A stretch of DNA of 5,723 bases from an uncultured delta proteobacterium (lineage in GTDB: Bacteria; RBG-13-61-14; DRUE01), in assembly GCA_903930515.1 (NCBI GenBank), contig CAIYYW010000376.1:1-5723 (forward strand), written 5' to 3'. Position 1 is the stretch's first letter. Each line of letters begins with the position of its first letter. The position numbers and the translations under genes were made by a program. The notes beneath the pieces were generated by a model. The model was not told the origin of the DNA. It did not search any database and saw only the letters and a program-made list of their open reading frames with translations. Positions 1 to 5,723 of this stretch are shown piece by piece.

Positions 1-1466
1 AGCGGGGCGCCGCACCCGAGGATCAGGCAGTTTTCTCCCGCGGCCTCGCGGATGATTTCCAAGCCCTTGCGCAAGGCCTGGGCGCCGGTGAAGGAGGGAT
101 CAAATCTTTTGCCCGGAAGCGCGGCGGTGTAGATGAAGTCCAGTTTGAGAAAATCGAATCCGCATTCCTTGACCAGGTATTCGGTGGTTTGCCTGAGCCA
201 TTGCTGGACCCCCGGGTGAGTGGTGTCAAGCGCGAACGCGATTTTGCCTTCCCACCCCGGATTGATCATCCCGATTTTGGACCAGCCGGAATTATTTTTC
301 AGGGTCCAATCGGGATTCATTTTGTAAAGCTCGGAGGAGATTGACGCCAGGAAGGGCGCGAGCCAGATTCCGGCCTTGAATCCCTGGGCGTGGATTTCTT
401 TCGCCAACTCCTTGGCCGTGATCGGGAACTTATCGTTCCATTCCAGCCAGTCGCCCACCGCGGCCTGGTATCCGTCGTCAATTTGGAACATCTCAATTTT
501 TGGATTCAGCTTTTGAGCCTGCTTCAGGTTCTGCTCAAAGCTGTCCAGGCTGATCTTGGTGAAGTAATAATACCAACTGCACCATCCGGTCAGGGGCTTC
601 TGAGTTCGCGCCTGCATCGCGCCGCCCCACAACTCAAAGTATCTTTTCTGGCCCGAACGCGGAGCGTCCGTCGGGCTGGCCATAACCCATTCCGAGCAGA
701 GCTCCTTGCCCGCGGCCAGCTCCACCCCCTCGCAATCCGCGATCGCTTCAAACCTCCGGAACCGCTCATATTTCACTTCCGCTTCCACTATTCCGGCCTG
801 GTCCTTGGAAGTGACGAACCCAAGCAGGAATCCCAGATCCAATTCCGGCTCCACGATCTCGGCCAGATATTCCGAGCTAAATACGGAATCCGCCTGCCGA
901 TTCCAGAGATAGGGCGCGAGTCCGATCCTTCGGGCGAGCCAATTGCTCGGCCTGGGTTGCGGCTCTAAAAGTCCGACTGACCCGGAGGGACTCCAGGACT
1001 GATACCCGAGCCGGAAAATTTTCCAGACCGTGTGCCCGGCCCCCATTTCCAGGCCGTCCCCGGCGCCCCGGTAGGAAAAGGGAGAAAGCTCGTCCACCAA
1101 AATCCCCCGGTCGCTTTGATTGCCGAGCCGGACCCGGAACAGGGCGAAATCCTCCCGGGCAAAAGTGGCGATCTCCCAGGTCAGATGGAATTGTCCGAAC
1201 CGGATCGGCCATCGGACCAGGTCCGCTTTCCCGACCGGGGTGTCCTGGGCCGGGAATGGTTCCGGCTCATCGGGCAGGACCACGGTGGAGAAGAGGAATT
1301 TTTTTTCTTTCGGCTTCGGCCGGAACCCGGCCCAAAACAGGATTGGCCCGAACCTGATTTTGCCGTCATTGCGGGAGATGGAAAGGGAACCGCAGTTCCG
1401 GTCCAGCCGGAGGGTGATTTTTTCTCCTGTAATCTGGATTACATTTGTCCTTCCGGCCGGATCCAT
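1..1466 (-). CDS. GH36-type alpha-galactosidase (melibiase-like), 3' end cut by window edge
   Basis: Probable retaining exo-glycosidase that removes alpha-linked galactose, or a related sugar, from oligosaccharides or glycoconjugates. 488 N-terminal residues are visible and the C-terminus lies beyond base 1. Residues 1 to about 280 form the beta-rich N-terminal domain, with YQSWSP at 155-160. The TIM barrel then begins. GWCSWYYYFT at 294-303, DDGYQ at 330-334, GDW at 338-340, KAGIWLAPF at 364-372 and FLKLDF at 439-444 are all hallmarks of GH36 enzymes. Asp443 aligns with the family's catalytic nucleophile. The acid/base Asp is expected about 60-70 residues later and is not visible. No signal peptide is seen, so a cytoplasmic enzyme acting on imported sugars is likely. 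The start ATG is 2 bases after the stop of the upstream DAHP-synthase-like gene, with AAGGA 10 bases upstream, which suggests translational coupling. Family membership is firm. Exact sugar specificity is inference, since GH36 also contains N-acetylgalactosaminidases and other activities. Confidence 0.9.
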   Translation of the reverse strand, partial: MDPAGRTNVIQITGEKITLRLDRNCGSLSISRNDGKIRFGPILFWAGFRPKPKEKKFLFSTVVLPDEPEPFPAQDTPVGKADLVRWPIRFGQFHLTWEIATFAREDFALFRVRLGNQSDRGILVDELSPFSYRGAGDGLEMGAGHTVWKIFRLGYQSWSPSGSVGLLEPQPRPSNWLARRIGLAPYLWNRQADSVFSSEYLAEIVEPELDLGFLLGFVTSKDQAGIVEAEVKYERFRRFEAIADCEGVELAAGKELCSEWVMASPTDAPRSGQKRYFELWGGAMQARTQKPLTGWCSWYYYFTKISLDSFEQNLKQAQKLNPKIEMFQIDDGYQAAVGDWLEWNDKFPITAKELAKEIHAQGFKAGIWLAPFLASISSELYKMNPDWTLKNNSGWSKIGMINPGWEGKIAFALDTTHPGVQQWLRQTTEYLVKECGFDFLKLDFIYTAALPGKRFDPSFTGAQALRKGLEIIREAAGENCLILGCGAP

Positions 1467-1468
1467 TC

Positions 1469-1900
1469 TTACATTTTCCTTCCCAGCACCCCGGAGATCG
1501 GACGGCACTCCTTCATCAGTCCTTCAAACTGGGCGAAATTCAACGACTGCGGCCCGTCCACCATCGCCTTTTCCGGATGCGGGTGCACTTCAATGATCAG
1601 GCCGTCCGCTCCCACCGCGACCGCGGCCCGGGCCTCGGCCAAAATTTCCAGTCCCGCCTTGGCCAGGCCCTGGAAGCTGTAAGGATTGGTCCGGGGCTTG
1701 AACGCCCCTCCCCGGAGCGCGCTGGCGCCCGGCATCGCCTGAAGCTCATCCGGGTCCAACTTGGTCTTGTCCCCGATCACTCCGATGATGGTGATTTTCT
1801 TGCCCCGCGACAGATGCACATCCAGCCCGGCCTGTTTGATCTTCTCGACCAGCGGGTTGATCTCGCGGTCCCCGATCCCTTTTTGCATGACGATAATCAT
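1469..1900 (-). pseudogene. Internally deleted DAHP synthase (type I-beta, AroF-like), two in-frame gaps
   Basis: Intact enzymes of this family (3-deoxy-7-phosphoheptulonate synthase, about 340 residues) condense phosphoenolpyruvate and erythrose 4-phosphate at the entry to the shikimate pathway. This frame has only 143 residues. Residues 1-58, with SRGKKITIIGVIGDK at 31-45, match the N-terminal ferredoxin-like regulatory domain. Residues 59-91, with LRGGAFKPRTNPYSFQG at 62-78, match the phosphoenolpyruvate-binding strand and helix. Residues 92-143, with GADGLIIEVHPHPEKA and DGPQSL, match the C-terminal end. Judged against remembered family sequences, about 60-70 residues are missing after Gly58, including GPCS with the metal-binding Cys. 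About 120-135 are missing after Arg91, including the KRG, CERG and DPSH motifs with the metal-binding His. The metal ligands Glu104 and Asp115 remain. The protein cannot be a normal synthase. The frame is otherwise clean, has a strong Shine-Dalgarno site and sits 2 bases before the GH36 gene. Alternatives are a small non-catalytic derivative or an assembly error. Homology is certain, pseudogene status is inferred. Confidence 0.8.
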
Positions 1901-1908
1901 TGCCTGAT

Positions 1909-1914
1909 CTCCTT
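1909..1914 (-). promoter_or_regulatory. Ribosome binding site of the DAHP-synthase-like gene
   Basis: On the minus strand AAGGAG lies 8 bases before the ATG at base 1900. This is a near-ideal Shine-Dalgarno sequence and fixes the start. The residues that follow (MIIVMQKG) match the usual first strand of type I-beta DAHP synthases, so the start is ancestral. The site shows that translation initiation has not decayed although the coding region has lost its core. Confidence 0.75.
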
Positions 1915-1952: not shown

Positions 1953-3980
1953 CTAGCTGGGTTCCGGATCCAGGAATCCAAAACCCTCATGCACCGCTTC
2001 CAACAAACGACGCGGCTTTTTAGCGTCTCCAATAATCCGGAAGGGAATTCCGAGCTTCTTTAAAAACTGCTCCAATTGATTCTCCGGACATGCGCCCGGC
2101 GCGGTCACCACCAAAGCCGCCGGCGTTAACCGTTGCTCCGTGCCCGCTTGCTGGTAAACCACCGCGTCCGGTTCGATCCGAATAACCTTCGCGCCCAGCA
2201 AGACCGCGGCGCCTGATTTTTTCAGACGGTAATTGAGCCAGTAGCCGTGGGCGGTGAGGTTGTTCACGGGCAGGGAATCTTTCATTTCCAGGAGGGTGAG
2301 CTTGATGCCGCGGCTGAGAAGGAAGTCCGCGGTCTCCATTCCCACATATCCGGCTCCCAGGACCACGGCCGGGCTTTTGAGCGGGACCTTGCCCAGCAAA
2401 ATCTCTCGCGCGTCACAGACATTTTCGGAGTTGATCCCGGGGATCGCAGGCCGGACCGGAATCGCGCCCGAGGCCAACGCCACCAGGTCCGGTTTTCCGG
2501 ATGCGATCAACTCCCCGGTCAGCTCCTGTCCAAGCCGGATCGAGACCCCGAGCCGATTAAGTCTGCGGGTGATCCAGCCGACCCATTGCAGGAAAGCCTC
2601 CTTGTGGGGCGGTTTGCTCGCGCTCCTGAGTTGACCGCCCGGCTCGCGCTCGCGCTCGAAGATGGTGACCTGGTGTCCGCGTTCAACCGCGGCCAGTCCT
2701 GCGGAAAGTCCCGCGGGGCCGGCTCCGACGATCCATATTTTCTTGCCCTGCGGGTCCTTGCCCAAGGAACCTTTGAATTCCTTGCCGCATTCCGGATTGA
2801 TGGCGCAGGTCGCGGACTTCATTTCATAGCTCAGCCGCTCGATGCATCCCTGGTTGCAGGCGAGGCAAAAGCGGATGCCGTCAAAGTCGCCCCGAGAAGC
2901 CTTGGCGAGGAAGTCGGGATCAGTCAGGTGCTGCCTTCCGAAACTCACCAGGTCCGCGTCTCCTCTGGCAATGGCCTGGTCGGCGAGCCGGGGATCGGCG
3001 ATGCGGCCCACCGCGATCACCGGTATTTTCACGACTTGTTTCAAGGCGCGCGCCCGGAAGAGGTTGAACCCGGGCTCGGTGTCAAATCCGGCTATGCTCA
3101 GGTTGCCGGGCGTGGAATAGACCCCGATCGAACAATGGATCGCGTCAACCCCGGCCTCGGCCAATTTCGGAGCGAGCCATTGGATGAAGCTCAAATCATA
3201 TCCGCCCTTGATCAGTTCGTCCGCGCTCACCCGGATCAGGATGGGAAAATCCGGCCCGGTTTTTTCGCGGATTTTTTTTATGATTTCAATCGCGAAGCGG
3301 GCGCGGTTTTCATCAGAGCCGCCGTAGGCATCGGTCCGGACATTGGAGAACGGAGAAAGGAATTGGTTGACCAGGTATCCGTGCGCGCCATGGATTTCCA
3401 CCGCGTCAAACCCGGATTGTTTCGCCCGGACCGCGGCAGAGGCAAACGCCCCGATGATTTCCTGAATCCGCTCAATGCTCATTTCCGCGCAAGGCTGATT
3501 CAGGATCGCGCTCGGGACCGCCGAGGGCGCTTCGGGTAGATCGCCGGCAACGATCTTGAAGGTTTCGCGGCCGGCGTGATGGAGTTGGACCGCGGCCTTG
3601 GCGCCGGATTCATGCAAGGCCCGCGGGATCCTGCTCAGGCCCGGAATAAAATCATCCTTCCAAATGCCGAGTTCGGAAGGGAACCCTTTTCCGCGCGGAT
3701 CAATCGCGCACACTTCGGTGATGATCAGGCCGGCTCCGCCTTGGGCGCGACGAGCAAGGTATGCGACCAGCCGGTCCGTGACCGTGCTGTCGTGCTTGCT
3801 GTAACCGGTGCCCATCGCCGGCATCACCGCGCGGTTTTTGAGTTCCATCCGATTGATGGAGACGGGATGAAAAAGCTCGCGGAGCCCGTTGGGCAGGTCC
3901 GATGGCTCCCTTTCGGTTTTTCCAACCGCCGCCGGTCTGATTTTAGCATCACCCGCTTTCTTTATAGTAACCATAATCAT
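1953..3980 (-). CDS. FadH/BaiCD-type NADH:flavin oxidoreductase (2,4-dienoyl-CoA or enoate reductase family)
   Basis: A 675-residue FMN, 4Fe-4S and FAD enzyme close in length to E. coli FadH (672). Such enzymes pass electrons from NAD(P)H through FAD and the cluster to FMN to reduce an activated C=C bond. Numbering is from the ATG at 3980. The Old Yellow Enzyme barrel runs from about 33 to 370. It includes LKNRAVMPAMGTGY at 47-60, QLHHAGRE at 132-139 and EIHGAHGYLVNQFLSP at 195-210, where Tyr202 aligns with FadH Tyr166. Next comes the cluster set Cys372, 375, 379, 392. The FAD motif GAGPAG is at 419-424, the second nucleotide-binding motif GAGYVG at 542-547, and the terminal GDA...EGF at 651-667. 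The region aligned with FadH His252 reads SIGVY, with Tyr instead of His, so the substrate probably differs from classical dienoyl-CoA. A 32-residue polar extension precedes the barrel. GTG at 3983 is an alternative start. Cytosolic; substrate unknown. Confidence 0.9.
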   Translation of the reverse strand: MIMVTIKKAGDAKIRPAAVGKTEREPSDLPNGLRELFHPVSINRMELKNRAVMPAMGTGYSKHDSTVTDRLVAYLARRAQGGAGLIITEVCAIDPRGKGFPSELGIWKDDFIPGLSRIPRALHESGAKAAVQLHHAGRETFKIVAGDLPEAPSAVPSAILNQPCAEMSIERIQEIIGAFASAAVRAKQSGFDAVEIHGAHGYLVNQFLSPFSNVRTDAYGGSDENRARFAIEIIKKIREKTGPDFPILIRVSADELIKGGYDLSFIQWLAPKLAEAGVDAIHCSIGVYSTPGNLSIAGFDTEPGFNLFRARALKQVVKIPVIAVGRIADPRLADQAIARGDADLVSFGRQHLTDPDFLAKASRGDFDGIRFCLACNQGCIERLSYEMKSATCAINPECGKEFKGSLGKDPQGKKIWIVGAGPAGLSAGLAAVERGHQVTIFEREREPGGQLRSASKPPHKEAFLQWVGWITRRLNRLGVSIRLGQELTGELIASGKPDLVALASGAIPVRPAIPGINSENVCDAREILLGKVPLKSPAVVLGAGYVGMETADFLLSRGIKLTLLEMKDSLPVNNLTAHGYWLNYRLKKSGAAVLLGAKVIRIEPDAVVYQQAGTEQRLTPAALVVTAPGACPENQLEQFLKKLGIPFRIIGDAKKPRRLLEAVHEGFGFLDPEPS

Positions 3981-3988
3981 CACCCCAT

Positions 3989-4057: not shown

Positions 4058-5723
4058 CTCTGATTCTGAGGATGGGTGGCAGGAACTCCTGGTTCCGCGG
4101 TCAACTCCACCTGAAACAGAGCGAGGTTATCGCTGAGCCCGGCGACCCGCTTAAGCCGGTATCTCCTCCAGAAACCGCGCAACTCCGGGCCGGCAATGCG
4201 ATGATGTTGAGCAAGGACTTCGATCACCGTCTCCGCCGATACCTCGCTGAGAAGATATACTTTCTTGCCGGCGGCGATTTCGCCCCGAATGATGAGATCC
4301 AGATTTCGCGGAAAATATTCGCCGTTGACCGGCTGGGACAAGACCCAATCCAGGGTGATGGTCCTGCGTTCGCAAAAATAGGGAATATAGATCTTTCCGA
4401 TGTTAAATGATTCTTTGACATTGGATACCCCGGAAATAATTATCGGGCTGGAAGGCTCGGTTAAGGCTTTAATCTGTTCCGCTATTTTCAGGTTCCGGTT
4501 ATTTTCACGATAGGAGTCGGGCAAGATTTCGGTGGCGAAATTAGCCGCGAATAAACCGGCTACGGCCAGCCCCAGAAAAAACGATGCGATGATTTTATGG
4601 GTGAGGGATGGAGGCCAGGGCAGGCCTAGATAAACCATCATCCAGAGTGGAGGCAGGAGATAGATTTTTTGTTCCAGGAATCCGGGCGCCCATAAAGCGG
4701 TGAAAATAATCCCCGGCAGGATCCAGAGCAGAATCAGGTCGCCGGTGATTTCCCGACGGCGCCACGATTTGAAGTGCTGATAAACAAAAGCTCCGACAGA
4801 AATCAGAATTGCCGACAAGCAGAAGATTTTTAGGCCGGACCAGACCGAACCGTCGCCAAGGTTTCTGGAATTGCCGAAAAGAGCCCAGCGCATTCCGGAA
4901 AGCCATTGTCCGGGGGCCGCGGCGCTCAGTTCCCAGTATCCTTCTTTATACCCATAGGGGGTTTGCGGGATGGCGCAGCTTAGGACCCAATTTAAAAAGG
5001 TTTTGGACAAAAACCGCGCCGGAGGAGCCGGATGAGGGGCCAAGAAAAACCCGATCAGATATAAAGTCCCGCAAATAAAACCCGCGCTTAAAATAATCCC
5101 GAGCGGAGGCGATAATCGCGCCAAGCCTTTGCGCGAGGGGAATATCCGATAAGAGAAATACAAGATGGGGATCAGGAACAGTCCATGCATAAGATGCCCG
5201 AGGATGGCGAGGCCAGCGATAGCGCCGAGCAGAAGAATGGTTGGGAGGGTTTGGTCCGGCTGGATCTTATAATTTTCTTTGCGCCCGATCCGTACCATCA
5301 AGTAGAATCCGCAGTCCAATAATAGCAAGGCCAGGGTGTGCACTTCGGGCTCGACCGAATAATACCAGTAAACATGGCTGAACCCGAGGCCGAGCGCGCA
5401 AATGGGCGCCAGCCATTTTTTGTCCGGTCGGAGTTCAAGGAGCACCAGCGCGAAGACCGCCAAGTTGATGCCGGAAAGGAGCAGGTCGAAGATCTCCAGC
5501 GCCAAAATTGCGCGAACTTTCAAGCCGAGCAAAAGCAGGAGATTCCAGAACCCATACCCGAGCGGCTCGTAAATTATGTGATGAGAATGAAACAGCAGGC
5601 CCTTGCCGGCCCCGGCCTTGACCGCCTCCAGGGCCATACTGAAAACCACGCCGTCAAAATTGTAGTTATAAGAAAGGAACCCGTAGTTAAAAGCGAGGTA
5701 AAAAAACGCCAGCAGCCAGAACG
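4048..5723 (-). CDS. Multi-pass membrane glycosyltransferase-like protein (GT-C / PMT-like), 5' end cut by window edge
   Basis: The reading frame is open from the stop at 4048 to the window edge, giving 557 visible residues; the true start lies outside. A GTG at 5649 is an internal codon, because the upstream residues continue a typical first membrane helix (FWLLAFFYLA) and then a loop, YNYNFDGVVFSMALE. The loop Asp (visible residue 23) sits where GT-C enzymes carry a catalytic Asp after helix 1. The motif FHSHHIIYEPLGYGFW (44-59) and the later SVEPEVHTLALLLL recall the HPPGYPLY and AEVYAL patterns of DUF2723/protein O-mannosyltransferase-like proteins. About 10-11 hydrophobic helices follow up to about residue 395, with LEQKIYLLPP before the last pair. 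A soluble tail of about 160 residues holds the alternating pattern PIIISG, KKVYLLSE, probably an extracytoplasmic alpha/beta domain. Likely role: transferring sugar from a polyprenyl-phosphate donor to a cell-surface acceptor. Family assignment rests on topology and motifs, and the acceptor is unknown. Confidence 0.75.
   Translation of the reverse strand, partial: FWLLAFFYLAFNYGFLSYNYNFDGVVFSMALEAVKAGAGKGLLFHSHHIIYEPLGYGFWNLLLLLGLKVRAILALEIFDLLLSGINLAVFALVLLELRPDKKWLAPICALGLGFSHVYWYYSVEPEVHTLALLLLDCGFYLMVRIGRKENYKIQPDQTLPTILLLGAIAGLAILGHLMHGLFLIPILYFSYRIFPSRKGLARLSPPLGIILSAGFICGTLYLIGFFLAPHPAPPARFLSKTFLNWVLSCAIPQTPYGYKEGYWELSAAAPGQWLSGMRWALFGNSRNLGDGSVWSGLKIFCLSAILISVGAFVYQHFKSWRRREITGDLILLWILPGIIFTALWAPGFLEQKIYLLPPLWMMVYLGLPWPPSLTHKIIASFFLGLAVAGLFAANFATEILPDSYRENNRNLKIAEQIKALTEPSSPIIISGVSNVKESFNIGKIYIPYFCERRTITLDWVLSQPVNGEYFPRNLDLIIRGEIAAGKKVYLLSEVSAETVIEVLAQHHRIAGPELRGFWRRYRLKRVAGLSDNLALFQVELTAEPGVPATHPQNQSRP

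Follow-up and report, generated by a model that had tools for sequence, protein, structure and literature searches.

DAHP synthase opens the pathway to the aromatic amino acids. The question raised by this locus is whether a gene for type I-beta DAHP synthase that has lost 57% of its length and kept its reading frame has been inactivated, makes a new small protein, or is shortened in the assembly alone. The gene lies in the window, the stretch of 5,723 nucleotides from an uncultured delta proteobacterium. A preliminary description had read it as three collinear blocks of DAHP synthase joined by two in-frame internal losses and had offered three options, a gene under erosion but kept translatable, a new small protein derived from an enzyme, or an assembly deletion.

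Frame, domains, and missing segments of the shortened gene

The frame begins with ATG and runs uninterrupted through 143 aa (Table 1). In Pfam searches, the product matched PF18152 (DAHP_snth_FXD) over residues 1 to 58 with 73.2 bits (cut-off, 27) and the end of the DAHP_synth_1 family profile over residues 85 to 129 with 55.8 bits (cut-off, 25.5), and these scores, both above their cut-offs, make it a type I-beta DAHP synthase by ancestry. When it was compared by phmmer with the T. maritima DAHP synthase (1rzm), three separate collinear stretches were found, in which query residues 1 to 56, 48 to 91, and 87 to 142 paired with residues 1 to 56, 111 to 154, and 281 to 336 of the 1rzm chain, respectively. 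The family assignment and the three blocks were thus borne out, and the alignment, which had been suggested as a check, confirmed the missing segments. On the sequence evidence, we regard it as certain that the homology of the product to DAHP synthase goes beyond chance. The FXD match of block 1 stops at position 58 of the 67 in the profile, short of the last strand; block 2 retains every family-invariant residue, and the retained blocks keep all of the positions that are invariant in an alignment of 45 proteins.

Table 1. Features of the window, with positions, strand, and basis or remark
Feature	Positions	Strand	Basis or remark
Downstream alpha-galactosidase (melibiase) family gene, runs off the contig	3..1466	(-)	PF02065
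Type I-beta DAHP synthase gene in its shortened form, 143 codons + TAA	1469..1900	(-)	
Block 3 (residues 91-143), the final beta/alpha unit, which holds the metal ligands Glu104 (EVHP) and Asp115 (VDG)	1472..1630	(-)	
Junction 2, 393 nt / 131 codons absent relative to G001	1630..1631	(-)	Breakpoint fit, ambiguity of 2 positions
Block 2 (residues 57-90), the barrel's LRGGAFKPRTNPYSFQG substrate segment plus the next helix	1631..1731	(-)	
Junction 1, 189 nt / 63 codons absent relative to G001	1730..1732	(-)	Breakpoint fit, 3-nt ambiguity
Block 1 (residues 1-56), the greater part of the N-terminal ferredoxin-like (FXD) regulatory domain	1733..1900	(-)	PF18152
Ribosome-binding site AAGGAG	1909..1914	(-)	8 nt 5' of the ATG, from sequence
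Upstream gene of NADH:flavin oxidoreductase / 2,4-dienoyl-CoA reductase type	1953..3983	(-)	PF00724, PF07992

As the reference, we used G001 (CAIUDS01, AlinenSedimentsD2 bin-1424), the single same-genus genome available for comparison, in which the three genes of the window occur in identical order with DNA that is ~74% identical. The gene at the same place in this close relative (L034:1872-2882, minus strand, on contig G001:C665) is a complete orthologue of 337 aa. In a two-breakpoint fit against it, the window gene lacked exactly 189 nt at one junction and exactly 393 nt at the other, with no further indel, and 343 of the 432 remaining bases matched; a single assembly, in 401 contigs, underlies both junctions. 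The two in-frame internal losses claimed earlier therefore held good relative to G001, and the block limits given for them were right within about two residues. Junction 1 has cost the gene the end of the FXD domain, the linker, and beta1/alpha1 with the GPC motif, and junction 2 has cost it the KRG, CERG, and DPSH motifs; the absence of all four motifs had been correctly foreseen.

The metal ligands of DAHP synthase are Cys, His, Glu, and Asp (PMC6362186). As the preliminary description had stated, the Cys of GPC and the His of DPSH have been deleted and Glu104 and Asp115 are present, so that two of the four ligands remain; in place of a complete (beta/alpha)8 barrel, two barrel segments are left, with 63 and 131 residues gone. 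Judged by what its sequence lacks, the shortened gene can no longer encode a DAHP synthase enzyme. That a short enzyme might still produce DAHP from PEP and E4P seems barely credible: Glu104, Asp115, and the LRGGAFKPRTNPYSFQG segment are retained, but most of the barrel and half of the metal ligands are gone, and every DAHP synthase reported to date is a metalloenzyme built on a full (beta/alpha)8 barrel (PMC6362186).

With the T. maritima enzyme (type I-beta with an N-terminal ferredoxin-like domain; 1rzm, 1vr6, and 3pg9), the window protein shares the domain order, the collinearity of the three blocks, and the invariant residues within them, but, unlike it, the window protein is without the 63 and 131 residues, the complete barrel, and the Cys and His ligands. 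The FXD-truncated T. maritima construct (3pg8) is likewise a shortened DAHP synthase, in which, however, the regulatory domain was removed and the barrel kept, whereas in the window protein the regulatory domain has been kept and the barrel gutted.

The ATG of the alpha-galactosidase-type gene lies 2 nt past the DAHP synthase stop codon, in the window and in G001 alike, and the oxidoreductase gene is without internal indel relative to its G001 counterpart. Between the oxidoreductase and the shortened genes, we observed an inverted repeat, CTGTTA-AAATTC-TAACAG (1920-1937), as a possible operator; in the G001 counterpart (CTGCTAGAATTTTAAAGG), the symmetry is absent.

An intact second copy in the same genome

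The preliminary description had advised looking for a complete DAHP synthase elsewhere in the genome, and one was found. The genome to which the window belongs (401 contigs, 93.5% complete) carries an intact second DAHP synthase of 344 aa, here called copy B, on contig C289, so that the function is covered outside the window. The only genes returned by a PF00793 search of the genome were copy B, the window fragment, and one KDO8P synthase-like gene, and we accordingly rejected the idea that the missing segments are located elsewhere in it. A 3-dehydroquinate synthase gene is also present, and the aromatic pathway therefore continues. A C289 stretch (L036:1040-1990) has many matches in G001, at 65 to 95% identity, in the manner of a dispersed repeat family.

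In the same-order genome G002, a single DAHP synthase was found; copy B shares 74% identity with it, and the two form a pair in the tree (support, 99/96). No match to the window's copy (copy A) was found in G002. Copy A, represented in the tree by the G001 gene, falls outside the B clade, at the base of a mainly planctomycete group (fork support, 93/91). This sequence-based placement agrees with the view of copy A as a dispensable addition, which may have been acquired laterally: as an extra copy of another branch, it could disappear and leave the pathway intact.

The deletion-joined form itself was confined to the window in our searches. We found no short form joining the same blocks in 60 related or spread genomes or among the best 80 loci from 84,980 species genomes, a search that covered about 100 relatives and, within the group, one same-genus and one same-order genome. 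The form is thus not conserved in more than one lineage in these sets, and the earlier proposal to look for it in relatives yielded nothing. The relatives' genes were complete or near complete almost throughout; shorter frames were considered as instances of the same form and rejected, as they appear to be other DAHP synthase architectures, frames with late-set starts, or the frame-broken copy B of G001. A literature search returned no paper on a natural internally deleted DAHP synthase.

Constraint on the retained codons

Compared with G001, the retained codons gave a dN of 0.115 and a dS of 0.96 (dN/dS, 0.12); the corresponding dN/dS ratios were 0.184 for the upstream and 0.150 for the downstream gene, and the same blocks in copy B gave 0.113. 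The 27 amino acid differences from G001 were divided between the lineages, with G001 nearer the family at 14, the window nearer at 12, and neither at 1. Among the 48 columns conserved in at least 80% of relatives, the window kept 47 and G001 departed at two. By block, dN was highest in the N-terminal domain (0.166, versus 0.07 and 0.09). Neither dN/dS nor the lineage split nor the conserved columns gave any sign of constraint having relaxed after the lesion. This lack of decay, as far as sequence comparison can tell, is compatible with a lesion that is very recent or artefactual and also with constraint that has been maintained.

We simulated neutral change in the retained gene, scoring as the outcome an open frame with none of the 47 conserved residues altered. 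The probability of the observed state was 0.34 at 0.01 and 0.11 at 0.02 changes per site, falling to 0.04 at 0.03 and 0.0035 at 0.05. If the gene has evolved neutrally since the deletions, it has thus accumulated less than about 0.03 changes per site. If, as we infer, about half of the dS of ~1 between the two genomes falls on each lineage, the deletions date from within roughly the last 6% of the lineage's history, are not real, or have left a fragment that is still constrained.

Explanations for the shortened form

Taken together, these results suggest that the window gene is probably a redundant copy, copy A, that has very recently undergone two internal in-frame deletions, with the consequence that the enzyme is no longer made from it. 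Copy B would supply DAHP, and the loss of copy A would be tolerated. Slippage at short matching stretches, or recombination between them, may have produced the deletions, most likely as two short-homology deletions or as one complex template-switch event. The chance that two losses would both preserve the frame is 1 in 9, and retention of the frame could be such a chance outcome or could have been favored by the tight operon: because the gene stops 2 nt before the next, translation of the two may be coupled, and in that case in-frame losses would be better tolerated than frameshifts. Among the three options offered at the outset, erosion of a translatable gene is therefore the best supported insofar as C289 carries an intact copy and makes this one redundant, but the part of that option that implied prolonged erosion is not, there being no sign of it; the deletions are accordingly either very recent or an artefact. 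Under simple neutral erosion, two large in-frame deletions without other decay are a coincidence. Young bacterial pseudogenes, such as recently inactivated paralogues, can carry a large internal deletion and be otherwise undecayed, with an intact copy elsewhere. The window gene resembles them in its redundancy, its large internal loss, its lack of other decay, and its intact counterpart; it differs in that both of its losses are in frame and without a stop codon.

An artefact of assembly or library construction is the second-placed reading after fresh inactivation, and we consider it rather unlikely. The gene would then be full length in the organism, and two segments of it would be missing from the contig, for instance because of chimeric reads or an erroneous consensus where a metagenome contig is thinly covered. 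Retained codons without any decay are what a gene intact in nature would have, the contig is short (5,723 bases), and the sister metagenome-assembled genome G001 has single-base irregularities in two genes, which indicates that such assemblies can err. However, the sides of the junctions, with G001 as a proxy for the missing segments, share few bases, far under an assembler k-mer, and a graph misjoin is therefore unlikely. Exact multiples of three at both losses would, moreover, be expected of an artefact only once in nine times. In ~38 kb of other DNA of the same genome aligned to G001, no comparable loss was found inside an aligned stretch, which argues that losses of this kind are not a general failing of the assembly, and a genome-wide deletion artefact was rejected on this ground. 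At L118, two matches in the alignments to G001 differ in length by 65 nt. The G001 irregularities lie in runs of C or G, at L034 ~600-660 (the alpha-galactosidase-type gene) and L035 ~5115-5165 (DAHP synthase copy B), and break both reading frames, whether through assembly error or in reality.

A new small protein is possible but unsupported, and we regard it as improbable that the freed FXD domain, with the barrel remnants as a tail, serves to bind aromatic amino acids or enters the oligomer of the paralogue and so tunes that enzyme. The frame survives both losses, the start codon and ribosome-binding site are intact, and the retained positions are conserved; beyond the kept frame, though, we found no support for this option of the preliminary description, since the form was absent from every relative searched and no confident fold is predicted for what is left of the barrel. 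AlphaFold2, run on the 143-aa chain with 45 aligned sequences, gave a mean pLDDT of 75.9 and a pTM of 0.46. The N-terminal domain was predicted with high confidence (pLDDT of 86 to 96 per ten-residue block over residues 1 to 50), but residues 64 to 79 and 90 to 97 fell below a pLDDT of 50, and in this model a confident fold is limited to the regulatory domain. A strand predicted at residues 59 to 62, formerly part of the barrel, follows the FXD helix at the site of the lost last FXD strand and could in principle close the domain. Foldseek searches with the model returned DAHP synthase itself (1rzm, 1vr6, and 4grs) at an rmsd of 13 to 18 over the full length, and on account of these high values a new compact fold for the whole fragment was rejected. 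Against a new small protein stand also the strictest conservation, which falls on residues of the active site in blocks 2 and 3, for which no role is evident once the barrel is gone, and the divergence of the N-terminal domain, the most diverged of the three blocks. We give similarly little credence to a maintained stand-alone regulator, in which an FXD domain with the ex-barrel strand replacing its last strand would bind aromatic amino acids and act on the paralogue; were this true, the preservation of the frame and the conserved codons would reflect selection.

If, as we think probable, the window gene is a redundant copy in decay, its importance hardly extends past annotation, where it should be left out of any count of DAHP synthases. 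If the short form were instead maintained and made, it would represent an allosteric domain freed from its enzyme by deletions within one gene.
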